In this document: positions 1,893-30,324 of the stretch, in pieces
How the letters are laid out: the number at the start of each line of letters is the position of its first letter
How positions within the stretch are numbered: the first letter of the stretch is position 1
IMG/VR virus record: IMGVR_UViG_3300029908_000073
Coordinates: 1-37,904 of that record
Reading direction: 5' to 3' (one strand)
Source of the DNA: a virus
DNA length: 37,904 nt
Notes under the pieces: generated by a model
What the model saw: the letters and a program-made list of their open reading frames with translations, nothing else
What the model was told of the DNA's origin: nothing
The model's database searches: none
Program-made: the position numbers and the translations under genes

Positions 1893-2931
1893 TAAGCGTC
1901 ACCGTCCCGCAAATTGGTATTTGGTCAATCGTTAACGGGACATTGCTAGTGCCACCACAAACAATAAGATTTTTATAATCGCTAATTATGCCAGAATCCA
2001 GCAATATTTTTCCGATCTGAGCATAGCTTATATAAGTTGACGTAAAGCCATAGGCACTAAAATAAGCGTTTACAGCTGCTTTGACCGTGTCGATATCAGC
2101 CACACCCTTGATGTCCACACAAATATCAATTGGATAGGGAGCTGGACTTGTTACTGTGACGGTCGCCCCGATCGGACGAACCGTTTCAATATAATCAGCA
2201 ACGGCTTGCACTAAAGTACTGCTTGCTGTCGCATTGTTGCTATCAACGATAATGACTTTTACCGTTCCATTTCCATTCCAAACAGAATAAACTTTTGCTT
2301 GTCCAACTCCAGCAACGGACAAAGCCCATTCTTGATAGTGATTAGCGTTGCCAGATGTTGCCGGTGCTCTAACCTTAAGCAAATATCTTGCCAATAACTG
2401 CGCGTCGGTTTCTTCTGTATAGCCATCAACTGCACCAACTTCATTCGTCACGGCTGTAACTCCTGGTATCGAATAAGGAATTTTAGTGATTGTTCCAGCA
2501 GCTACATTCCCAGCTGTGCCGGTATCACCGCATTGCGCCTTTACTGTTATAGTGCCATCACTTCCAAGGACAGCAGCTACAGTCGTATAAAATTTCAAGT
2601 CTTCTGGTGTTGAAAAAAGGCTGTTTTTGATAATGGGCACCCCTGCGGTGCCTGTAATTTTCAAAGTAACAACTGCAGCCGTTGCTTGTTTCCGATCAAC
2701 GCCCATTTCTGTGGCTTTCATTGTTAAATAATCGTTCCAAGCAGTATCCGCAAAGGCTGCTTCAATCATTAAATTCATTTCATTATAGGCTTGACCAAAC
2801 TCAATGGAATTGGCCGTAAGCATATCGGCATTAAAAGAGCCCTCGACCGTTGTTGCTGTGTTGTCCGTAATTGTTAAATCCGTTTTCAACCTGGCTAAAA
2901 CATCGCTTACGCTTTGTTGCTCAAAACTCAT
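1876..2931 (-). CDS. Baseplate J/gp47-like wedge protein (XkdT type)
   Basis: A 351-residue protein of the baseplate J family, a structural wedge of contractile tails. The N-terminus (MSFEQQSVSDVLARLKTDL) and the central GYTEETDAQLLARYLLKVRAPATSGN region are typical: the family has a conserved segment in which an acidic stretch precedes LRxR and an SGN. The C-terminal half has the repeated small alpha/beta fold seen in J proteins (PIDICVDIKG...). The start has an AGGAAGGTGA ribosome-binding site. It lies between the DUF2634 wedge protein and the gp48-like protein, as in PBSX and related prophages. Confidence 0.92.
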   Translation of the reverse strand: MSFEQQSVSDVLARLKTDLTITDNTATTVEGSFNADMLTANSIEFGQAYNEMNLMIEAAFADTAWNDYLTMKATEMGVDRKQATAAVVTLKITGTAGVPIIKNSLFSTPEDLKFYTTVAAVLGSDGTITVKAQCGDTGTAGNVAAGTITKIPYSIPGVTAVTNEVGAVDGYTEETDAQLLARYLLKVRAPATSGNANHYQEWALSVAGVGQAKVYSVWNGNGTVKVIIVDSNNATASSTLVQAVADYIETVRPIGATVTVTSPAPYPIDICVDIKGVADIDTVKAAVNAYFSAYGFTSTYISYAQIGKILLDSGIISDYKNLIVCGGTSNVPLTIDQIPICGTVTLNVYSS

Positions 2932-19261: not shown

Positions 19262-19513
19262 TTAATATATCCATGTTTCTACAAGTGACAATACATCTTT
19301 TTCGTATCTAGGTATTTGGGTATAGCCATTTGGTATTTTTTCTCTAATTTCTTGTAAAGTTTCTGCCGTCACTGCCTTATCAGTTGACTCAATTCCGTTG
19401 TATAAGCGGGCGATATATCCACATGGATAATCGTCCGGCTTGTTATAAATTGCAATAGTCTTCATTGTCTCGCCATCCCTGATATATGAATCTTCAAAAC
19501 TAAACTTCGTCAT
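19262..19513 (-). CDS. Small conserved-looking phage protein, unknown
   Basis: An 83-residue protein with MKTIAIYNKPDDYPCGYIAR, LYNG and VTAETLQEIREKIPNGYTQI PRYEKD-type sequence, reading as a compact alpha/beta domain. ATG 19513 is preceded by GGAGGTAGAG and overlaps the end of the methyltransferase second ORF by 14 bases. I cannot assign a function. The neighbours suggest an accessory early gene. Confidence 0.65.
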   Translation of the reverse strand: MTKFSFEDSYIRDGETMKTIAIYNKPDDYPCGYIARLYNGIESTDKAVTAETLQEIREKIPNGYTQIPRYEKDVLSLVETWIY

Positions 19514-20456
19514 TTTTCTCTACCTCCGCTCGCCATCTTTTTTCAATGCTTGCTATATATTTAAAAATCGGATAAATCTGTTGTGGCATAACTGCATTTC
19601 CTATACATTTCAACCGCTTTGCTCGATTTTTTTGTCCTGAAATCACCCGTGGTGGCTCATAAGAATATTGACCTGTTGCATCGTTAAAAACATGAACCTG
19701 TGTCTGTATTCTCGTAGACATTTCAATTGGTCTGCCGCTTGTCTTTGAAGTTTTTCCGCATTGCGAAGCTGTTGGTGTCATCCAATCGCGTCCGCTTTTT
19801 AATGGAGCTGGCCATCCTACCCACTCTTTCACATCGTCACAGTCAATATCTGTCCAACCAATCGAAAAACCCATAAGGCATTCCACCCAATCTGGATTTA
19901 ATTGACCTTTGTTAGATGGCTCCATCACTTCTCCTCTTAGGTTTCCACGTTTCACTTCTTTATGCCGCTCTGACCCATATAGGCTTGACCCTTTGCAGCT
20001 ACTTGCTGTAGGTGTTCCCCATAGTTTCACTGCATCATTAAGATTTTGACTCCATCCTTGTTCGGCTTTCCTTGATTGCCGTGGACTATTAGGATTATCT
20101 CCACTTCGATAATCTCTGACTTGTGGTGTTGGCCAATGCTTTACAGCTGCCGGCAATCCATTTCTCACATCGTTAGCAATTTCTCCACGTTTTTCTGCAT
20201 CATTTGCTCTTGGCGTGGGCCACGATGAATGTCCTTTCCCTTTTGTGCGGTGCCCCGACCTCACAAGCTCCGTAGCAAGACCACCCGACACGATACCCCA
20301 ATGCGGCCAAGTCGTAGAGTATGGTTCCGAATGTTCCCCCTTGCTTCCCGGAAACATCAGCAATTGACAAGAGTCCTGCGACATTTTCGCCCAATACCCA
20401 TTCTGGTTTGACTTCTCCCACAACGCGAAGCATTTCCGGCCAGAGAAACCTTTCAT
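19500..20456 (-). CDS. C5-cytosine methyltransferase, TRD and motif IX-X part
   Basis: This is the second part of a split methyltransferase. The frame is open from 20582, but ATG 20456 (MKGFSGRKCFALWEK) has AAGGAG six bases upstream and gives about 318 residues. It carries the target-recognition region with repeated WPTPRAND, WPTPQVRDY and WGTPTASS sequence, then NPDWVECLMGFSIGWTD (motif IX) and KCIGNAVMPQQIYPIF (motif X). The upstream ORF supplies motifs I-VIII in another frame, overlapping this one by over 250 bases. It is either a natural two-subunit enzyme of the M.AquI kind or a frameshifted single gene. Confidence 0.75.
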   Translation of the reverse strand: MKGFSGRKCFALWEKSNQNGYWAKMSQDSCQLLMFPGSKGEHSEPYSTTWPHWGIVSGGLATELVRSGHRTKGKGHSSWPTPRANDAEKRGEIANDVRNGLPAAVKHWPTPQVRDYRSGDNPNSPRQSRKAEQGWSQNLNDAVKLWGTPTASSCKGSSLYGSERHKEVKRGNLRGEVMEPSNKGQLNPDWVECLMGFSIGWTDIDCDDVKEWVGWPAPLKSGRDWMTPTASQCGKTSKTSGRPIEMSTRIQTQVHVFNDATGQYSYEPPRVISGQKNRAKRLKCIGNAVMPQQIYPIFKYIASIEKRWRAEVEKNDEV

Positions 20457-20724
20457 CTTCTTCTCCTTGTCTATATCCGGCAAGGCTAAAAGGTTGACAA
20501 GGGAATCCACCGCAGACAATATCGATTTGGGGTATTCCATCATCTTGCAATCTTCTTTTGGTAATAGTTCTGACATCGCCATATATTTTCACTCCTGGAA
20601 ATCTTTTATTTAAAACTTTCACCGCATATGGCTCTATCTCACAAAAAGCAACGGTTTCAATGCCTGCCCATTGTGCCGCAATATCAATTCCCCCTATCCC
20701 TGAAAATAGTGATAACATTTTCAT
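20200..20724 (-). CDS. C5-cytosine methyltransferase, catalytic part (motifs I-VIII)
   Basis: A 174-residue N-terminal half of a DNA cytosine-5 methyltransferase. Motif I is LSLFSGIGGID at residues 4-14, the catalytic Cys76 is in GGFPCQPFS, ENV is at 113-115, and the motif VIII equivalent is HKRERTFIVA near the end. The frame stops at residue 174, before the recognition domain, which is encoded in the overlapping frame. ATG 20724 overlaps the parB stop (ATGA), with AAGGAG upstream. It probably protects phage DNA from host restriction. Activity requires the other part. Confidence 0.82.
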   Translation of the reverse strand: MKMLSLFSGIGGIDIAAQWAGIETVAFCEIEPYAVKVLNKRFPGVKIYGDVRTITKRRLQDDGIPQIDIVCGGFPCQPFSLAGYRQGEEDERFLWPEMLRVVGEVKPEWVLGENVAGLLSIADVSGKQGGTFGTILYDLAALGYRVGWSCYGACEVGAPHKRERTFIVAHAKSK

Positions 20725-21983
20725 TCCGCTTCTCCTTCTGATAATTGAAAACATTCTTTTTGTGCGCGTTCTTTCAGTTCTTTTAAATATTGCGCTAATG
20801 CCGCCCTGAAGTCGGCTCCCTCTGCATTGTCTTCCGCTTCTACTTTTTCTATCTGCTTATCTAAAATTGCCATTGTTGTTTTTATCGCATACCACCTGTA
20901 ACTAAATTTTTCTTCGCTCTGCTCTGCTTCCGGCAATTGCTTAATGTATCCGTACTTAAGCAATATTTCTGCTAAATTTTCGTCCCGTCGCGAAACTCCA
21001 TCTACAGCCGCCTGTTTTGCAATATCTATAGTTTCATATGATCCGCCGATTGGTGAACTGCCGCCATGATAGGTTCCACTAGTAAAATTAAAACTAAATC
21101 CAGAAGCATAGGTCTTATTTTCCTGTTTTTCAATATCAATTCTCACTTTTACTTTATATTTCTTCGGTATAGCCAAATATTCGCGTTGTATATTATCCTG
21201 ATTATTTTCTTTTTTGGGAACTGTCTCAAAACCATCAACATTTAAATTTTCCGGTTCTTGTGGCTGTTTTATTTCTTGCTGATATTGCTTTACATCTTTC
21301 ACAGTAACTTTTCCGCCTGTTTCTTCATATACGGCTCTTTGATCTTCTGCTGACAAGCCAGATAATTCATTTGCCGCGGCGAAATTTATATTATCATCCT
21401 TATAGGCTTCTTTTACTTCTGGTATGAGATTTTTACTGATCTTCTCATGCCGCCCCACATTGGCTACTGACATTCCCATATTTTCTGCTATAGTTTCCCG
21501 AATCCGCCCTTTAAATTCCGGATTTTCTTTTTTGTAATCCGTATATAATATTTTCAGCCGTTCAATTTCTTCTGTTATTTCAGCTGATGTCTTTTTGCGT
21601 GTTTCACTATTCATCGTAATGAGCAGAATATTTTTTACGGTATCACTCATGGTTGGTATGATCCGGCAAGGCAGCCAACTAAATTTTTTCTTTCCTTCTT
21701 TGACCAGTAGGCGACAAGCTTCATGGCGTCTATGTCCTGATATAATTTCATACTTTTTGTCTTGGCGGCGCATAACAGTTAAATTTTGTTGAAGTCCAAA
21801 TTCTTCAATATTTTCTTTCAAGCTATCAATATCAGTCAAAGAGTAAAAATTATCCTCTGACGGAATCAAGTCTTCTATATCAATATCTGTAACGACAAAA
21901 CGGTCTTGTTTATCGGCAACAGCAAGAATCCCACTATTAATATTTCCTTTTTTCGTGGTTAATTTATTTATATCAATAATCAA
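20721..21983 (-). CDS. ParB/Spo0J-domain partition protein
   Basis: A protein of about 420 residues. TTG 21983 is favoured because AGGGGGAG lies six bases upstream; the longer frame from TTG 22031 would run through the palindrome and lacks a site. The N-terminal ParB/Srx fold has DLIPSEDNFYSL, SLKENIEEFGLQQNL and the nucleotide-binding ISGHRRHEACRLL motif. A helix-turn-helix region follows (IRETIAENMGMSVANVGRHE). The C-terminal half holds a beta-strand segment (KYKVKVRIDIEKQ) of unknown role. With ParA upstream it suggests active segregation of an extrachromosomal phage form. Confidence 0.88.
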   Translation of the reverse strand: MIIDINKLTTKKGNINSGILAVADKQDRFVVTDIDIEDLIPSEDNFYSLTDIDSLKENIEEFGLQQNLTVMRRQDKKYEIISGHRRHEACRLLVKEGKKKFSWLPCRIIPTMSDTVKNILLITMNSETRKKTSAEITEEIERLKILYTDYKKENPEFKGRIRETIAENMGMSVANVGRHEKISKNLIPEVKEAYKDDNINFAAANELSGLSAEDQRAVYEETGGKVTVKDVKQYQQEIKQPQEPENLNVDGFETVPKKENNQDNIQREYLAIPKKYKVKVRIDIEKQENKTYASGFSFNFTSGTYHGGSSPIGGSYETIDIAKQAAVDGVSRRDENLAEILLKYGYIKQLPEAEQSEEKFSYRWYAIKTTMAILDKQIEKVEAEDNAEGADFRAALAQYLKELKERAQKECFQLSEGEAE

Positions 21984-22000
21984 TTTTTTCTCCCCCTGTT

Positions 22001-22019
22001 TGTGCTCATAATGAGCACA
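22001..22019. promoter_or_regulatory. 19-bp perfect palindrome, copy 2 (candidate parS/operator)
   Basis: TGTGCTCATAATGAGCACA spans the stop codon of parA and lies just before the ribosome-binding site of parB. An identical copy is at 19,236-19,254. Its place inside the parAB operon makes it a good centromere candidate. Confidence 0.65.
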
Positions 22020-22764
22020 AGTTATTTTCAATGTGTTCTTTCACCCAGCGACGATAATCTACTGCCGCGCCACTACGCAATGAGTTTTCAACCACTGGTT
22101 GTCCTTCGAAAGCCGCACGTCGCACGGTATCGCTTTCACGTATACGGGTATCAAATACAGGGTAGGTTTCTTGGGCTTTCATCTGTCGTGTAACCTCTTG
22201 CGATATATCATCATTTTTATATCTTGTTACTAAACAACCATCAAAGTACAAAGTCGGATTCACTTGACGTGCTTTTTCGATATCTCGCATGATTTTATCA
22301 AGTCCCCAAAATCCGAATGTATCAATGCATATAGGCACAATCACTTCGTCACTGGCTATCAGTGCATTGTCAGTGCTTATTCCTAGTGCTGGTGCATTGT
22401 CGATAATACAAAAATCATAATCCTCTTGTATTTCTTCAAGAATATTTCTGAGTGCCAAATTCCCGCCGGGTACATCCAATGCTTCACAAGCCGTTTTTAA
22501 ATCTTCACTTGTTGGTACAATATCTAAATTCTCATAGCTTGTATGCTGAATTATTTCTCGAATTTTCGCCCCACCCATAAGAACATGTGCTATCGTTGGT
22601 CTATCTTCATCTACCGAAAAAAATCTGCTCATATTCGCTTGTGGATCAAGGTCAATCAGCAAAACTCGTTTGTCAAAATGCTGGCTGAACTCATACCCTA
22701 AATTGATACTAGTCGTAGTTTTCCCCACGCCGCCCTTGTTGTTTATGATTGATATCTTTTTCAT
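22006..22764 (-). CDS. ParA-family partition ATPase
   Basis: A 252-residue ParA/Soj-type ATPase. The deviant Walker A is KGGVGKTT, with Lys10 and Lys15, followed by LLIDLDPQANMSRFF, the CIIDNAPALG Walker B and a GFWGLDKIMRDIEKARQ C-terminal region. It starts with TAATG overlap to the gene upstream and ends in the palindrome ahead of parB. It moves or positions DNA through ParB-centromere complexes. Presence of a full parAB pair in a prophage suggests a plasmid-like state. Confidence 0.92.
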   Translation of the reverse strand: MKKISIINNKGGVGKTTTSINLGYEFSQHFDKRVLLIDLDPQANMSRFFSVDEDRPTIAHVLMGGAKIREIIQHTSYENLDIVPTSEDLKTACEALDVPGGNLALRNILEEIQEDYDFCIIDNAPALGISTDNALIASDEVIVPICIDTFGFWGLDKIMRDIEKARQVNPTLYFDGCLVTRYKNDDISQEVTRQMKAQETYPVFDTRIRESDTVRRAAFEGQPVVENSLRSGAAVDYRRWVKEHIENNLCSL

Positions 22765-23460: not shown

Positions 23461-24234
23461 TTACTCGCCCCTTTGTGATATTTTATTTTCATTTTTCACA
23501 AACACTATATGCTGACAAGGATATCCGTCTTTTGTATAGCCCTGATAGGTTAAGCGTTTATGTATGTGGTATCCCTTTGGTTCAACGATCCGCGTGCTGT
23601 AACATTCCGACCGTTTTACTTTTTCTTTTTTCTCTATTGGATCAATAAGATTCGTACTCGTCCTGATCCGACCGCTGTGCTGGTCAACATCTTCTTTTTT
23701 AAAATAAGATGCTAAATCTGCACTGTCGTCAACTTCTCCGCCAAATAAATCGATTCGAACCCGCCCCAGTGTCCAATATTTTTCTATTGCTGCCATATAT
23801 TTTTTTATTGCTGCCATATCTTCTGCCGGCAGTGCATTTATAAGCATGTGAGCATGTGGGCGACCTCGACCTGTTAAATTTTCTATAACGGCAACATATT
23901 TCAATTCATCGCCTTTGCGTTTATAGTACCGGCGCAAATTTGACATAAATTTATCTAAACTTTTTTTAACATCTTCTCTCACCGGAACCGTGCCGCTAAT
24001 CGTCATCGTCAAATACCAATCTCCCGCGTTGAAATTATTAGCTATCTTCAAAGCAAGTTTTGAAGCTGCATGACGTCGATTTGTTTCTTTTTGCTGTTCT
24101 GGCGTTTGGTTTATTTTTTTGGCTCTTGTTTTTCTAGCTTCTTTTGTTTCCGGCAAAGCATGATAGGTATAATACAGGTCCTTTTCTATGATTTTTTGAT
24201 CTACTGTTTTCCTTGTTTTTTTCATGTATCCCAT
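23461..24234 (-). CDS. HUH-type rolling-circle replication initiator (Rep)
   Basis: A 257-residue Rep-like protein. Motif I is DWYLTMTIS at residues 72-80, the HUH motif is GRPHAHMLI with His127 and His129, and a YFKK motif with candidate nicking Tyr177 follows in DLASYFKKE. This order fits single-strand initiators of small plasmids and filamentous phages (REP/G2P-like). The N-terminus is basic and Lys/Arg-rich. It is followed by small gene, unknown gene, parA and parB in one transcript. Its presence instead of a helicase-based replication set is unusual for a tailed phage. Confidence 0.8.
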   Translation of the reverse strand: MGYMKKTRKTVDQKIIEKDLYYTYHALPETKEARKTRAKKINQTPEQQKETNRRHAASKLALKIANNFNAGDWYLTMTISGTVPVREDVKKSLDKFMSNLRRYYKRKGDELKYVAVIENLTGRGRPHAHMLINALPAEDMAAIKKYMAAIEKYWTLGRVRIDLFGGEVDDSADLASYFKKEDVDQHSGRIRTSTNLIDPIEKKEKVKRSECYSTRIVEPKGYHIHKRLTYQGYTKDGYPCQHIVFVKNENKISQRGE

Positions 24235-24396
24235 TTTGTTATATCCGCCTATTCCTTTGAATAAAAATACTGTGGATTGTTCAACTTATTAATTACTTTA
24301 TCAAGGGAAAAAGAGGTCAACGCCTCTTGATTTTTCGGCTGATTTTTTACGTGCTATATGGTATAATAAACACGTATTCTAATTGGATCAGCCTAT
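24235..24396. other. Intergenic region upstream of rep
   Basis: This 160-base AT-rich gap holds a bidirectional hairpin terminator (24,306-24,335). It also holds an ACGTG / CACGT inverted repeat (24,349-24,353 and 24,371-24,375) around a TATAATAA sequence. A replication origin or rep promoter could lie here, but I see no clear nick site. No coding frame is convincing. Confidence 0.45.
24306..24335. terminator. Bidirectional terminator upstream of rep
   Basis: AAGAGG and CCTCTT form a 6-bp stem with T-rich tracts on both sides (CTCTTTTTC on minus, CTTGATTTTT on plus). It may separate the early small genes from rep transcription. Confidence 0.55.
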
Positions 24397-24712: not shown

Positions 24713-24981
24713 TTATTTATATGAAGTCTTTTCGTAAGTGCATCATCATAAACTTTTATGGATTCGTCACAAAATCGCTTTAAGGCACGAACCGGTATAG
24801 TGACTTGCTGAAAATCAATATCCCCGTCTTCTTTTACATCAGCTTGAAGGACTACTGTATTTCCTTGTTCATCTGCCATATAAGTTCCAAAATGTCTGTC
24901 TTTTCCAGATGTCTCAAATAATATTTGATATCCCATTTCTTTTAGCAGTTTAACCCTAGCCTGAAATAATTCTGTTTTCAT
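24709..24981 (-). CDS. Small early protein, unknown
   Basis: A protein of 90 residues from ATG 24981 (MKTELFQARVKLLKEMGYQI), with AAGGAG eight bases upstream. The upstream part of the open frame overlaps the previous gene and is unlikely to be used. It reads as a compact alpha/beta domain (GKDRHFGTYMADEQGNTVVL ... QQVTIPVRALKRFCDES). I recognise no family. Confidence 0.65.
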   Translation of the reverse strand: MKTELFQARVKLLKEMGYQILFETSGKDRHFGTYMADEQGNTVVLQADVKEDGDIDFQQVTIPVRALKRFCDESIKVYDDALTKRLHINK

Positions 24982-25126
24982 ATATTGCTCTCTCCTTTTG
25001 GTTGATCCCGTCTTGATCATTTTTATTTGCAAATATCATTGCGGCGATACCATTAGCGGCAATGTCCAGCAGTTCGTCTAAACTACTGGTGCCATATTCT
25101 ATTAAAATTTTTCTCTGATCTTCCAT
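24956..25126 (-). CDS. Small early protein directly downstream of hammerhead ribozyme
   Basis: A 56-residue protein starting at ATG 25126 (MEDQRKILIEYGTSSLDELL), with AAGGAG nine bases upstream. It is helical and acidic to amphipathic and overlaps the next gene by 26 bases. Its 5' untranslated region is the 3' product of the ribozyme cleavage, about 55 bases long, so its mRNA would begin with a 5' hydroxyl end. Function unknown. Confidence 0.6.
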   Translation of the reverse strand: MEDQRKILIEYGTSSLDELLDIAANGIAAMIFANKNDQDGINQKERAIYENRIISG

Positions 25127-25144
25127 TGTGATTCTCCTTTCGCT

Positions 25145-25204
25145 AACCTGTCTCATCAGGACGGGTAGGTCGTTTCCCGTCTACGCCCATATGGGCGTTT
25201 CGAC
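25145..25204 (-). ncRNA. Type II hammerhead ribozyme
   Basis: Read on the minus strand from 25204: stem II 5' half GUC; core GAAA (25201-25198); stem III CGCCC-AUAU-GGGCG; UA with the cleavage site after A at 25182; stem I GACGGG, loop AAACGACCUA, CCCGUC; core CUGAUGA (25159-25153); stem II 3' half GAC. All invariant core bases are present. Loop I GACCU can pair with AGGUU just after stem II (25149-25145), a plausible tertiary contact. Cleavage between 25182 and 25181 would split the early transcript between two small genes. Confidence 0.88.
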
Positions 25205-25251: not shown

Positions 25252-25401
25252 TTATGCAAATACAATGTTGAATTTCAGTGTGCATCTCACACCACTGTGT
25301 TTTTGCTCCATATGTGCAATGATTTCATCAACCTTTTTCTTCTTATCTTCCATCGTCATTCCACTTGGCACATATATCTCGATATTCATTTCTGGTATCA
25401 T
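25252..25401 (-). CDS. Small early protein (49 aa), unknown
   Basis: Frame MIPEMNIEIYVPSGMTMEDK continues with KKKVDEIIAHMEQ and ends LKFNIVFA at 25252. ATG 25401 has AAGGAG eight bases upstream. It reads like a beta-alpha-beta mini-domain. It lies just upstream of the hammerhead ribozyme in the same transcript. No known family is apparent to me. Confidence 0.6.
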   Translation of the reverse strand: MIPEMNIEIYVPSGMTMEDKKKKVDEIIAHMEQKHSGVRCTLKFNIVFA

Positions 25402-26452: not shown

Positions 26453-26466
26453 TTTCATACCCTCAT

Positions 26467-26493
26467 ATTATACCAATAATCGGATAGTGTCAA
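26467..26493 (-). promoter_or_regulatory. Early (PR-like) promoter
   Basis: Minus-strand -35 TTGACA (26488-26493) and -10 TATAAT (26467-26472) with a 15-base spacer; TAATAT gives 17. Operator 2 lies between them, so repressor binding would block it. It drives the early minus-strand operon. Confidence 0.65.
26473..26484. promoter_or_regulatory. Immunity operator 2
   Basis: CCAATAATCGGA, located between the -35 and -10 of the early promoter. Confidence 0.68.
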
Positions 26494-26552: not shown

Positions 26553-27071
26553 ATGAGCATCAATCAACGAATAAAAGAACTTAGAAGTTCTTTAGGATTG
26601 AACCAAAAAGATTTTGGGGAAAAAATCGGTCTAAAAAAATCAGCTGCTAGTTGGATAGAAAAAGAAGGCAATTCCGTAATTGACCAGAACATTCGTTTAA
26701 TCTGTGATACCTTTCACATCAGTGAAGAATGGATCCGAATTGGTAAAGGTGATATGTATGCACCGGATTCTCCTGGTGATATTTTTGATAGCATGCGGGA
26801 CGAATTGAACCTTTCTAATGTTGAGGAAAAAATACTCCGTGGATATTTTGAACTTGATGACCATTCCCGAAAAGCTGTCACCGATTTCATCGTAAATATC
26901 GGACGTTCTACCGCAAAAGAACCCATTCCTGAGAATGAGACCGACGAGGATGACAATGATCTCGAATTAAAGCACCGACAAGAAATTATTGCTGCCGAAT
27001 TTGAAGCAGAGAAAAAGGGGAAAATGTCGTTGGCTTCCACTGGTACAAATGGACACATCAAAAGAGCATAA
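26553..27071 (+). CDS. CI-like phage repressor, XRE-family HTH
   Basis: A 172-residue DNA-binding protein. The N-terminal helix-turn-helix covers about residues 5-65 (IKELRSSLGLNQKDFGEKIG ... SWIEKEGNSV ... LICDTFHISEEWIRIGKGDM). A linker and helical C-terminus follow (EEKILRGYFELDDHSRKAVT, then EIIAAEFEAEKKGKM). There is no LexA/CI serine peptidase domain, so RecA-stimulated self-cleavage is unlikely. It has a GAGGAGGTG ribosome-binding site and is divergent from the early operon, with three matching operators between them. Confidence 0.88.
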   Translation: MSINQRIKELRSSLGLNQKDFGEKIGLKKSAASWIEKEGNSVIDQNIRLICDTFHISEEWIRIGKGDMYAPDSPGDIFDSMRDELNLSNVEEKILRGYFELDDHSRKAVTDFIVNIGRSTAKEPIPENETDEDDNDLELKHRQEIIAAEFEAEKKGKMSLASTGTNGHIKRA

Positions 27072-28765: not shown

Positions 28766-30313
28766 ATGATCGCTGCATTATATGCCCGCTATTCATCCGA
28801 TAACCAGCGGGAAGAATCTATTATCGCTCAACTCCGTGCAGGTCGCGAATACTGCAAACAAAAAGGCTATCACATCATAAAGGAATATGCTGATGAAGCC
28901 AAAACCGGTACGGATGATAACCGTCCATATTTTCAACAAATGTTAAAAGATGCAAAATCCGGTCTTTTCGAAACCGTTGTTTTTCATAAAATTGATCGAA
29001 ATGCTCGGAATGAATACGACTATTATTTCCACAAAGTACAATTACAAAAATACGGCATCCATTACGAATATGTTACACAAAATATTGATGACAGTCCTGA
29101 AGGTCAAATGATGGAGAGTGTCATGGTCGGCATGGCTGCTTATTATAGTCGGAACTTATCGAAAGAAGTTTCGAAAGGAATGAACGAAAATGCTTATCAG
29201 GGTTTGTTTAATGGCGGAGTCCCGCCCCTTGGCTATAAGATCATTGACAGCAAATATGTGATTGATGAGCACGAAGCTCATGCTATACGAACCATTTTTG
29301 ATATGTACCTGCAAGGATACGGATATATGGCAATTATCAACAAACTTAATTTTGCTGGATTCACGACTCGACGCGGTCGTTCTTTTGGTAAAAATAGTCT
29401 GCACGATATCTTAGTTAACTGTCGATATATGGGACGCTATATATTTGGTAAAAATAAAAATACTACACCAAGCGGAAAACGTAATCAACATGGAGAGTTA
29501 GGCAAAAATGCGATTATTGTTGATAATGTCGTTCCGGCTATCATCTCCAAATCTGATTTTGAAAAGGTGGCAGGAAAAATGCGTGAAAATAAAAGGCAAC
29601 CTGGCAAGTTTACTGCACAAAATACGTATTTACTATCCGGACTTATTTACTGTGGTGAATGTGGATCAGCAATGCAAGGCACAACATCCGTAAGTAAAAT
29701 AACCGGCAACGTCCACCAGTATTACCGGTGCGGTAAAAAATATAGTCAGGGCATTTCTACTTGCCAAAATAAAAACGTTCGTCTTGATACGCTCGAAAAC
29801 ATTATCATAAACAAAATCGAAGAAATTATTTTCGCGCCGGAAGCGTTGGACGCACTGATTGATAAAGTATCCATTGCGTATGAGAAACTTGCCAATAATA
29901 CGAAGGCAGAACACGACGCACTGAATAAAAAATACACCAATACGGCAAATCGCATGGACAACCTTTATCGACTGATCGAAGATGGCACAGCCGACGACTT
30001 TGATATGAAAAGATTGCAAACCGTCAAAAAAGAAATGATTGATATTACGGAACAATTAGCCAAACTTGACACCCGTCCTACACCATTTCTCACTCGTGAT
30101 CAAATTATAGAATCAATTGCCTCTTATAAAGATGCAATAAAAAATAAGAGTGCAGAAAACCTCCGCGCTCTTATACAAAATTTCGTTAATAAAATTATTG
30201 TCAGTAAAAATGACATCACTATTCAGTTCAAAATAAAGTTTGAGCATGAATGGAGCGGGCGAAGGGAATCGGACCCTCGTGTCTTGCTTGGGAAGCAAGC
30301 GCTCTACCATTGA
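28766..30313 (+). CDS. Large serine recombinase (phage integrase)
   Basis: A 515-residue site-specific recombinase. The resolvase domain begins MIAALYARYSSDNQREES with catalytic Ser10 and has the VVFHKIDRNARNEYDYYF region. The recombinase domain (GVPPLGYKI ... EAHAIRTIFDMYLQGYGYMA) is followed by a zinc ribbon around residues 295-335 (LIYCGECGSAM ... YYRCGKKYSQGISTCQNK) and a coiled coil (YEKLANNTKAEHDALNKKYT). The last 20 residues (WSGRRESDPRVLLGKQALYH) are encoded by the antisense strand of tRNA-Gly. It inserts and, with a partner, excises the prophage at this tRNA. Confidence 0.95.
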   Translation: MIAALYARYSSDNQREESIIAQLRAGREYCKQKGYHIIKEYADEAKTGTDDNRPYFQQMLKDAKSGLFETVVFHKIDRNARNEYDYYFHKVQLQKYGIHYEYVTQNIDDSPEGQMMESVMVGMAAYYSRNLSKEVSKGMNENAYQGLFNGGVPPLGYKIIDSKYVIDEHEAHAIRTIFDMYLQGYGYMAIINKLNFAGFTTRRGRSFGKNSLHDILVNCRYMGRYIFGKNKNTTPSGKRNQHGELGKNAIIVDNVVPAIISKSDFEKVAGKMRENKRQPGKFTAQNTYLLSGLIYCGECGSAMQGTTSVSKITGNVHQYYRCGKKYSQGISTCQNKNVRLDTLENIIINKIEEIIFAPEALDALIDKVSIAYEKLANNTKAEHDALNKKYTNTANRMDNLYRLIEDGTADDFDMKRLQTVKKEMIDITEQLAKLDTRPTPFLTRDQIIESIASYKDAIKNKSAENLRALIQNFVNKIIVSKNDITIQFKIKFEHEWSGRRESDPRVLLGKQALYH

Positions 30314-30324
30314 GCTACGCCCGC
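30251..30324 (-). tRNA. tRNA-Gly (anticodon CCC), phage attachment site
   Basis: The cloverleaf is intact with encoded CCA. The acceptor is GCGGGCG / CGCCCGC, the D-arm GCTCAATGGTAGAGC, and the anticodon stem CTTGC with loop TTCCCAA. The prophage lies on the 3' side, so integration probably occurred at the 3' part and kept the gene functional. The integrase frame overlaps almost the whole gene in antisense. Confidence 0.95.

Follow-up and report, generated by a model that had tools for sequence, protein, structure and literature searches.

A type II hammerhead ribozyme was found on the minus strand of a viral DNA of 37,904 nt, which was analysed at its full length and is called the window here. 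Its structure, its family membership and its place between two co-directional genes, encoding proteins of 49 and 56 amino acids, can be read from the sequence. The most probable reading, to which we assign a probability of about 0.6, is that the hammerhead is competent, is transcribed in the early operon of a prophage and cuts in cis at A25182/G25181, splitting the transcript into two halves that would be translated and would decay independently. The hammerhead adds one more example to a sort of element and a sort of location that are already known. The features are compiled in Table 1.

Table 1. Coordinates of the ribozyme, its parts and the neighbouring features in the window
Feature	Position	Strand	Basis
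Type II hammerhead ribozyme, from stem II through the pseudoknot tail	25140–25204	minus	R1, 70.7 bits; RF02276, 32.7 bits; sequence
Stem II, 5′ strand GUC	25202–25204	minus	Pairs with GAC 25150–25152; sequence; family-invariant by the search pattern used
Core GAA	25201–25199	minus	Sequence
Hairpin of stem III (6 bp with the A25198-U25183 pair; loop AUAU)	25183–25198	minus	Sequence; in every predicted ensemble
Predicted cleavage site, after A25182 of triplet GUA	25181–25182	minus	H17 position in hammerhead core
Stem I hairpin, 6 bp, loop AAACGACCUA	25160–25181	minus	Sequence; folding
Core strand CUGAUGA	25153–25159	minus	Sequence
AGGUU tail, may form a pseudoknot with GACCU 25167–25171 of loop I	25145–25149	minus	5 bp, one G-U; family-wide helix covariation
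Upstream 49-aa gene	25252–25401	minus	ORF with SD-like AAGGAG
Downstream 56-aa gene	24956–25126	minus	ORF with SD; homologue in L003, 50–52% identity
Shine-Dalgarno-like AAGGAG of the 56-aa gene	25134–25139	minus	Sequence, 7 nt before ATG
Promoter-like site TTGACA-17-TAATAT	26465–26493	minus	10 of 12; divergent from repressor gene at 26553
Terminator-like hairpin after the operon	24311–24328	minus	

Structure of the hammerhead ribozyme

From 25204 downwards, the minus strand reads GUC GAA ACGCCC AUAU GGGCGU A / GACGGG AAACGACCUA CCCGUC CUGAUGA GAC AGGUU AGCGAAAGGAGAAUCACAAUG, with the slash marking the predicted cleavage site. The initial annotation had claimed that all invariant core bases are present, and each element was verified: CUGANGA is found at 25159–25153, GAA at 25201–25199, and the A15.1-U16.1 pair is A25198-U25183, the closing pair of stem III. 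The type II architecture was confirmed as well, as stem I (25181–25176 with 25165–25160) and stem III (25198–25193 with 25188–25183) are closed by loops and comprise 6 bp each, and stem II (GUC/GAC, 3 bp) is open. The cleavage triplet GUA (25184–25182) is of the NUH type. The predicted cleavage after 25182, 55 nt upstream of the ATG at 25126, agreed with the coordinates given earlier. When the flanks were included in the folding, the complete hammerhead fold was predicted.

The proposed pairing of GACCU in loop I with AGGUU beside stem II can form as well, and this pseudoknot would comprise 5 bp, two of them G-C and one G-U. Such a contact is frequent in type II hammerheads, although not every member has it. 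In the window's copy it is plausible and modest, and by itself not rare, 3% of random 12-mers matching its loop I equally well. The AUG in the core strand CUGAUGA shares the reading frame of the 56-aa gene, and a start there would lengthen the protein by ten residues (25156–25127, minus strand); the homologue on the related contig L003 aligns from the second ATG and not from this AUG.

Identification of the ribozyme

A scan with the Rfam gathering thresholds missed the hammerhead at 25140–25204. At a relaxed threshold, its best match was RF02276 (Hammerhead_II) with 32.7 bits and E=1.4e-6; the search with an Rfam type II model, which had been proposed with the initial annotation, thus returned the expected family, but with a score below the curated cut-off of 37 bits. 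This cut-off is a practical filter and not a structural feature, and further copies, from phages that have more than one hammerhead match, likewise score below it (e.g., 29.8–35.2 bits in L085 and L087). RF02276 did not match any of 14 control genomes. A covariance model, R1, was trained on 40 viral (phage) type II hammerheads, with the window's copy left out. It assigned 70.7 bits to the window's hammerhead (E=3e-18), which was the sole match in 104 kb, and only 5 of its 149 matches in 81 other viral loci outscored the window's copy. In a motif scan, the window contained this one perfect type II site. Perfect cores were absent from both strands of 60 order-1 Markov shuffles of the window, which contained six cores with one mismatch. 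Judged by its intact core and stems and by the R1 score, the element is a real type II hammerhead, as had been annotated.

A second ribozyme was not found in the window, which contains no other perfect type I, II or III motif, no type II motif with one core mismatch and nothing further in Rfam at E≤1. Neither another Rfam family nor a glmS fold or a known ligand-binding RNA domain was detected at the hammerhead site or in the window. With a single ribozyme found in the window, it is unlikely that a gene flanked by two of them is excised or circularised here.

The family of viral type II hammerheads

A pattern scan of viral contigs for the same GUC/GAC stem II retrieved at least 120 stretches, and 154 distinct copies besides that of the window (155 with it) were parsed among the matches listed. 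Among these 155 copies, the cleavage triplet was GUC in 139 and GUA in 12. In an alignment of 40 rows, the pairs of stem I, stem III and the pseudoknot have repeatedly changed on both sides; the covariation score was 0.589, compared with a shuffle mean of 0.159, and was reached in none of 500 shuffles. However, the 40 rows had been chosen for having the pseudoknot, and therefore, the fair test of the pseudoknot is that on all 154 copies: at least 4 bp can form in 98 of these 154 copies among the matches listed, in contrast to a mean of 34.6 and a maximum of 45 when the tails were swapped among the copies. The stem covariation was seen only across the wider family; at the junction itself, the single relative that carries a homologous 56-aa gene lacks the ribozyme. 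Among the genes downstream of the other hammerheads in the matches listed, no relative of the 56-aa protein was found.

Several phage contigs carry type II hammerhead matches in series. L085 (3315–6709, plus strand) contains ten within 3.4 kb, mostly one per gene junction, two of which are weak (23 bits), and many matches in series are likewise present on L014, L038, L039 and L087.

The location relative to gene junctions was quantified for the 133 viral copies with enough flank among the matches listed. An upstream stop codon is within 4 nt of the first ribozyme base in 89 of them (67%), a downstream start codon follows stem II at a distance of 15–35 nt in 92 (69%), and both features occur together in 61. 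In controls that were shifted by 150–1000 nt, the joint number was 0 or 1, with 1–3 copies for the stop codon (1–2%) and 4–20 for the start codon (3–15%). Thirty further R1 copies outside the first parse included 13 in the stop register and 20 in the start register. Statistically, the positions of phage type II hammerheads are thus much more closely tied to gene junctions than those of the controls. Nevertheless, genes were called mechanically, as ORFs of at least 40 codons and, on the downstream side, with a Shine-Dalgarno filter. Given also the compactness of phage genomes, the register alone is no proof of function. The window's copy has its start codon 23 nt downstream, the family median being 24 among the matches listed. 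On the upstream side, however, 47 nt separate it from the stop codon, which places it outside the stop-codon register of the family. A tentative idea, which we regard as rather improbable, is that these hammerheads represent a standard gene-junction module, with the first base at the upstream stop and the tail bordering the following initiation site, in which ribosomes and self-cleavage would compete or be coordinated; the window's copy would then be a variant that has been freed from the upstream stop. A search of the accessible literature did not reveal a statement of the register, which is no proof that it is unpublished.

The probable early operon and its neighbourhood

The co-directional small genes encode, in this order, proteins of 59, 74, 112 and 49 aa, and after the ribozyme of 56, 90 and 99 aa. 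A homologue of the 49-aa gene was not found. The promoter-like site upstream of this series is the probable start of the early operon; it diverges from the gene at 26553, which PHROGs identifies as a repressor gene. As promoter-like sites are no more numerous in the window than expected by chance, this assignment rests on position. No terminator-like site was found on the minus strand at the junction of the 49-aa and 56-aa genes, and the two genes should therefore share a transcript. In agreement with the initial annotation, the location looks like that between two co-directional genes of a prophage early operon.

Further features of the prophage were noted. Two overlapping ORFs on the minus strand (19500–20754) match successive parts of the cytosine methyltransferase family phrog_363 (50–217 and 224–322), and the longer ORF also matches an unrelated methyltransferase family; the two may represent one gene that is split or frameshifted. 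Partition genes resembling ParA and ParB (20721–22764 and 23461–24234, minus strand) are neighbours of a replication protein, and the phage encodes an integrase as well. In the region 28766–30324, the integrase-like gene (plus strand) runs into a tRNA-Gly gene on the opposite strand (30251–30324), which is a likely attachment site; beyond it lie a tRNA cluster and genes of bacterial type, for a LacI-type regulator and for galactose-1-phosphate uridyltransferase.

Comparison with related phages

No viral relatives were obtained in scans that used the replication protein, the 112-aa gene or the 56-aa gene as query. A search with ParA yielded L003–L005, and an alignment of the replication protein added L132; RF02276 had no match in these four relatives. 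When the 56-aa gene was represented by a degenerate pattern of 17 codons, the L003 contig alone was retrieved; scans of genome contigs gave nothing useful, and searches of phage and plasmid DNA with the junction or the operon gave no informative match. The terminase relatives suggest a Firmicutes host.

The ParA of L003 is 94% identical to that of the window. The two DNAs are similar from the start codon of the 56-aa gene and its homologue onwards, and the sequence upstream is entirely different. No hammerhead was detected there with Rfam at E≤1 or with R1, and the hammerhead is thus not conserved at the junction in the one relative available with the homologous gene. Upstream of the homologue, L003 has a terminator-like 13-bp hairpin followed by seven T, with a nested hairpin (2684–2743, plus strand). 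It matches no Rfam family at E≤1 and has a folding z-score of −4.3 to −4.6, better than 200 of 200 shuffles. A hairpin of this type at the corresponding junction would fit the view that it is of advantage to end one transcript and begin another at this place, and the two sequences suggest that the window phage and L003 may set this boundary by different means.

Probable operon splitting and rival explanations

Cleavage by a hammerhead yields an upstream product with a cyclic phosphate and a downstream product with a 5′-hydroxyl. We infer that the ribozyme would be transcribed within the polycistronic RNA of the early operon, would be cleaved in cis between A25182 and G25181 and would split the operon. 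The upstream mRNA would end with the stem III hairpin and a 2′,3′-cyclic phosphate, the downstream mRNA would start with a 5′-hydroxyl and the stem I hairpin ahead of the 56-aa gene, and the two halves would then be translated and degraded independently. Splitting is favoured because the core and stems are intact, the R1 E-value is very low, the family shows covariation and a terminator-like site is lacking at the junction. The tight placement of the phage copies at gene junctions and the terminator-like hairpin of L003 also speak for it. The missing hammerhead in L003, the modest pseudoknot and GUA instead of the usual GUC are points against it. Of 18 consensus hammerheads tested by Perreault et al. 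2011, 14 cleaved; tandem prophage copies cleaved in transcripts of about 2 kb, the A. tumefaciens set also in E. coli, and splitting of the transcript was suggested for prophage hammerhead clusters (PMC3088659).

The main rival to operon splitting is that the 5′-hydroxyl end would be attacked by RNase J, so that cleavage would trigger decay and lower the expression of the 56-aa gene and the later genes. It holds this place because RNase J1 degrades the 5′-hydroxyl product of glmS cleavage in B. subtilis (PMC3997798), and a Firmicutes host, where RNase J is usual, would fit. We nevertheless consider it unlikely, as the cleaved RNA would begin directly with a 6-bp hairpin. Moreover, neither an Rfam riboswitch nor a domain for ligand binding was detected at the hammerhead, so that it would cleave constitutively and the phage would pay for the decay at all times. 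Even less probable is a hammerhead that was gained by recombination and may cleave but has no selected role in the window phage; its absence from L003, with different sequence up to the start codon, would agree with such a history, but all core bases and stems are intact and the distance to the start codon is at the family median.

Release of the translation start site by cleavage is very improbable. In the respective model, the Shine-Dalgarno region of the 56-aa gene is bound by GUGAUUUUU in the 47-nt upstream spacer until cleavage frees it. The lowest-energy fold of 25254–25120 indeed has this helix, of 9 bp, around the intact hammerhead, and the predicted openness of the SD increases from about 0.55 to 0.84 upon cleavage. 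However, 7–15% of shuffled or random spacers pair equally well, the openness ranges from 0.51 to 0.80 depending on the flank that is folded, and 120 family members show no trend (median change 0.008), so that this candidate was rejected as weak. A chance match or a decayed, inactive hammerhead has hardly any probability, since the only point in its favour, the score under the Rfam cut-off, is shared by other copies, in phages with several matches, and the E-value of the independent model R1 and the lack of perfect cores in the shuffles oppose it.

Relation to known systems

The initial annotation had called the position and role unfamiliar. This has to be corrected: Perreault et al. 2011 (PMC3088659) described type II hammerheads with their loop I-tail pseudoknot, found that they flank genes in prophages and reported a phage case in an early operon, 13 nt before an early gene. 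The window's copy shares the core, the open stem II, the pseudoknot and the intergenic prophage position with the RF02276 family, but differs in having GUA instead of the usual GUC, a weaker pseudoknot with a G-U pair, a single copy instead of a cluster, and a score below the Rfam cut-off. HHphage of the haloviruses HF1 and HF2 is likewise a phage hammerhead just upstream of an early gene, and its cleavage site is no more than 3 nt from a mapped 5′ end of a transcript (PMC3088659). In contrast to the window's copy, which has a standard core and a mid-operon position, it has core insertions, precedes the first gene of the transcript and belongs to an archaeal virus. The tandem hammerheads flanking ardA in Agrobacterium tumefaciens are also located between prophage genes and were shown to cleave polycistronic RNA (PMC3088659), but three ribozymes surround two genes there, whereas the window has one. 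The glmS ribozyme self-cleaves upstream of a start codon and leaves a 5′-hydroxyl mRNA, as predicted for the window's copy; its fold is unrelated, it is ligand-dependent and a known decay trigger, and the likeness is at most one of outcome.

The reason for the gene associations of prokaryotic hammerheads was still called unknown in 2023 (PMC10085705). The interest of the window's hammerhead lies in the gene-junction register of its family and in its being a clean single-copy test case: since the corresponding junction of a relative carries a terminator-like hairpin instead, it offers a convenient test of transcript separation by hammerheads.
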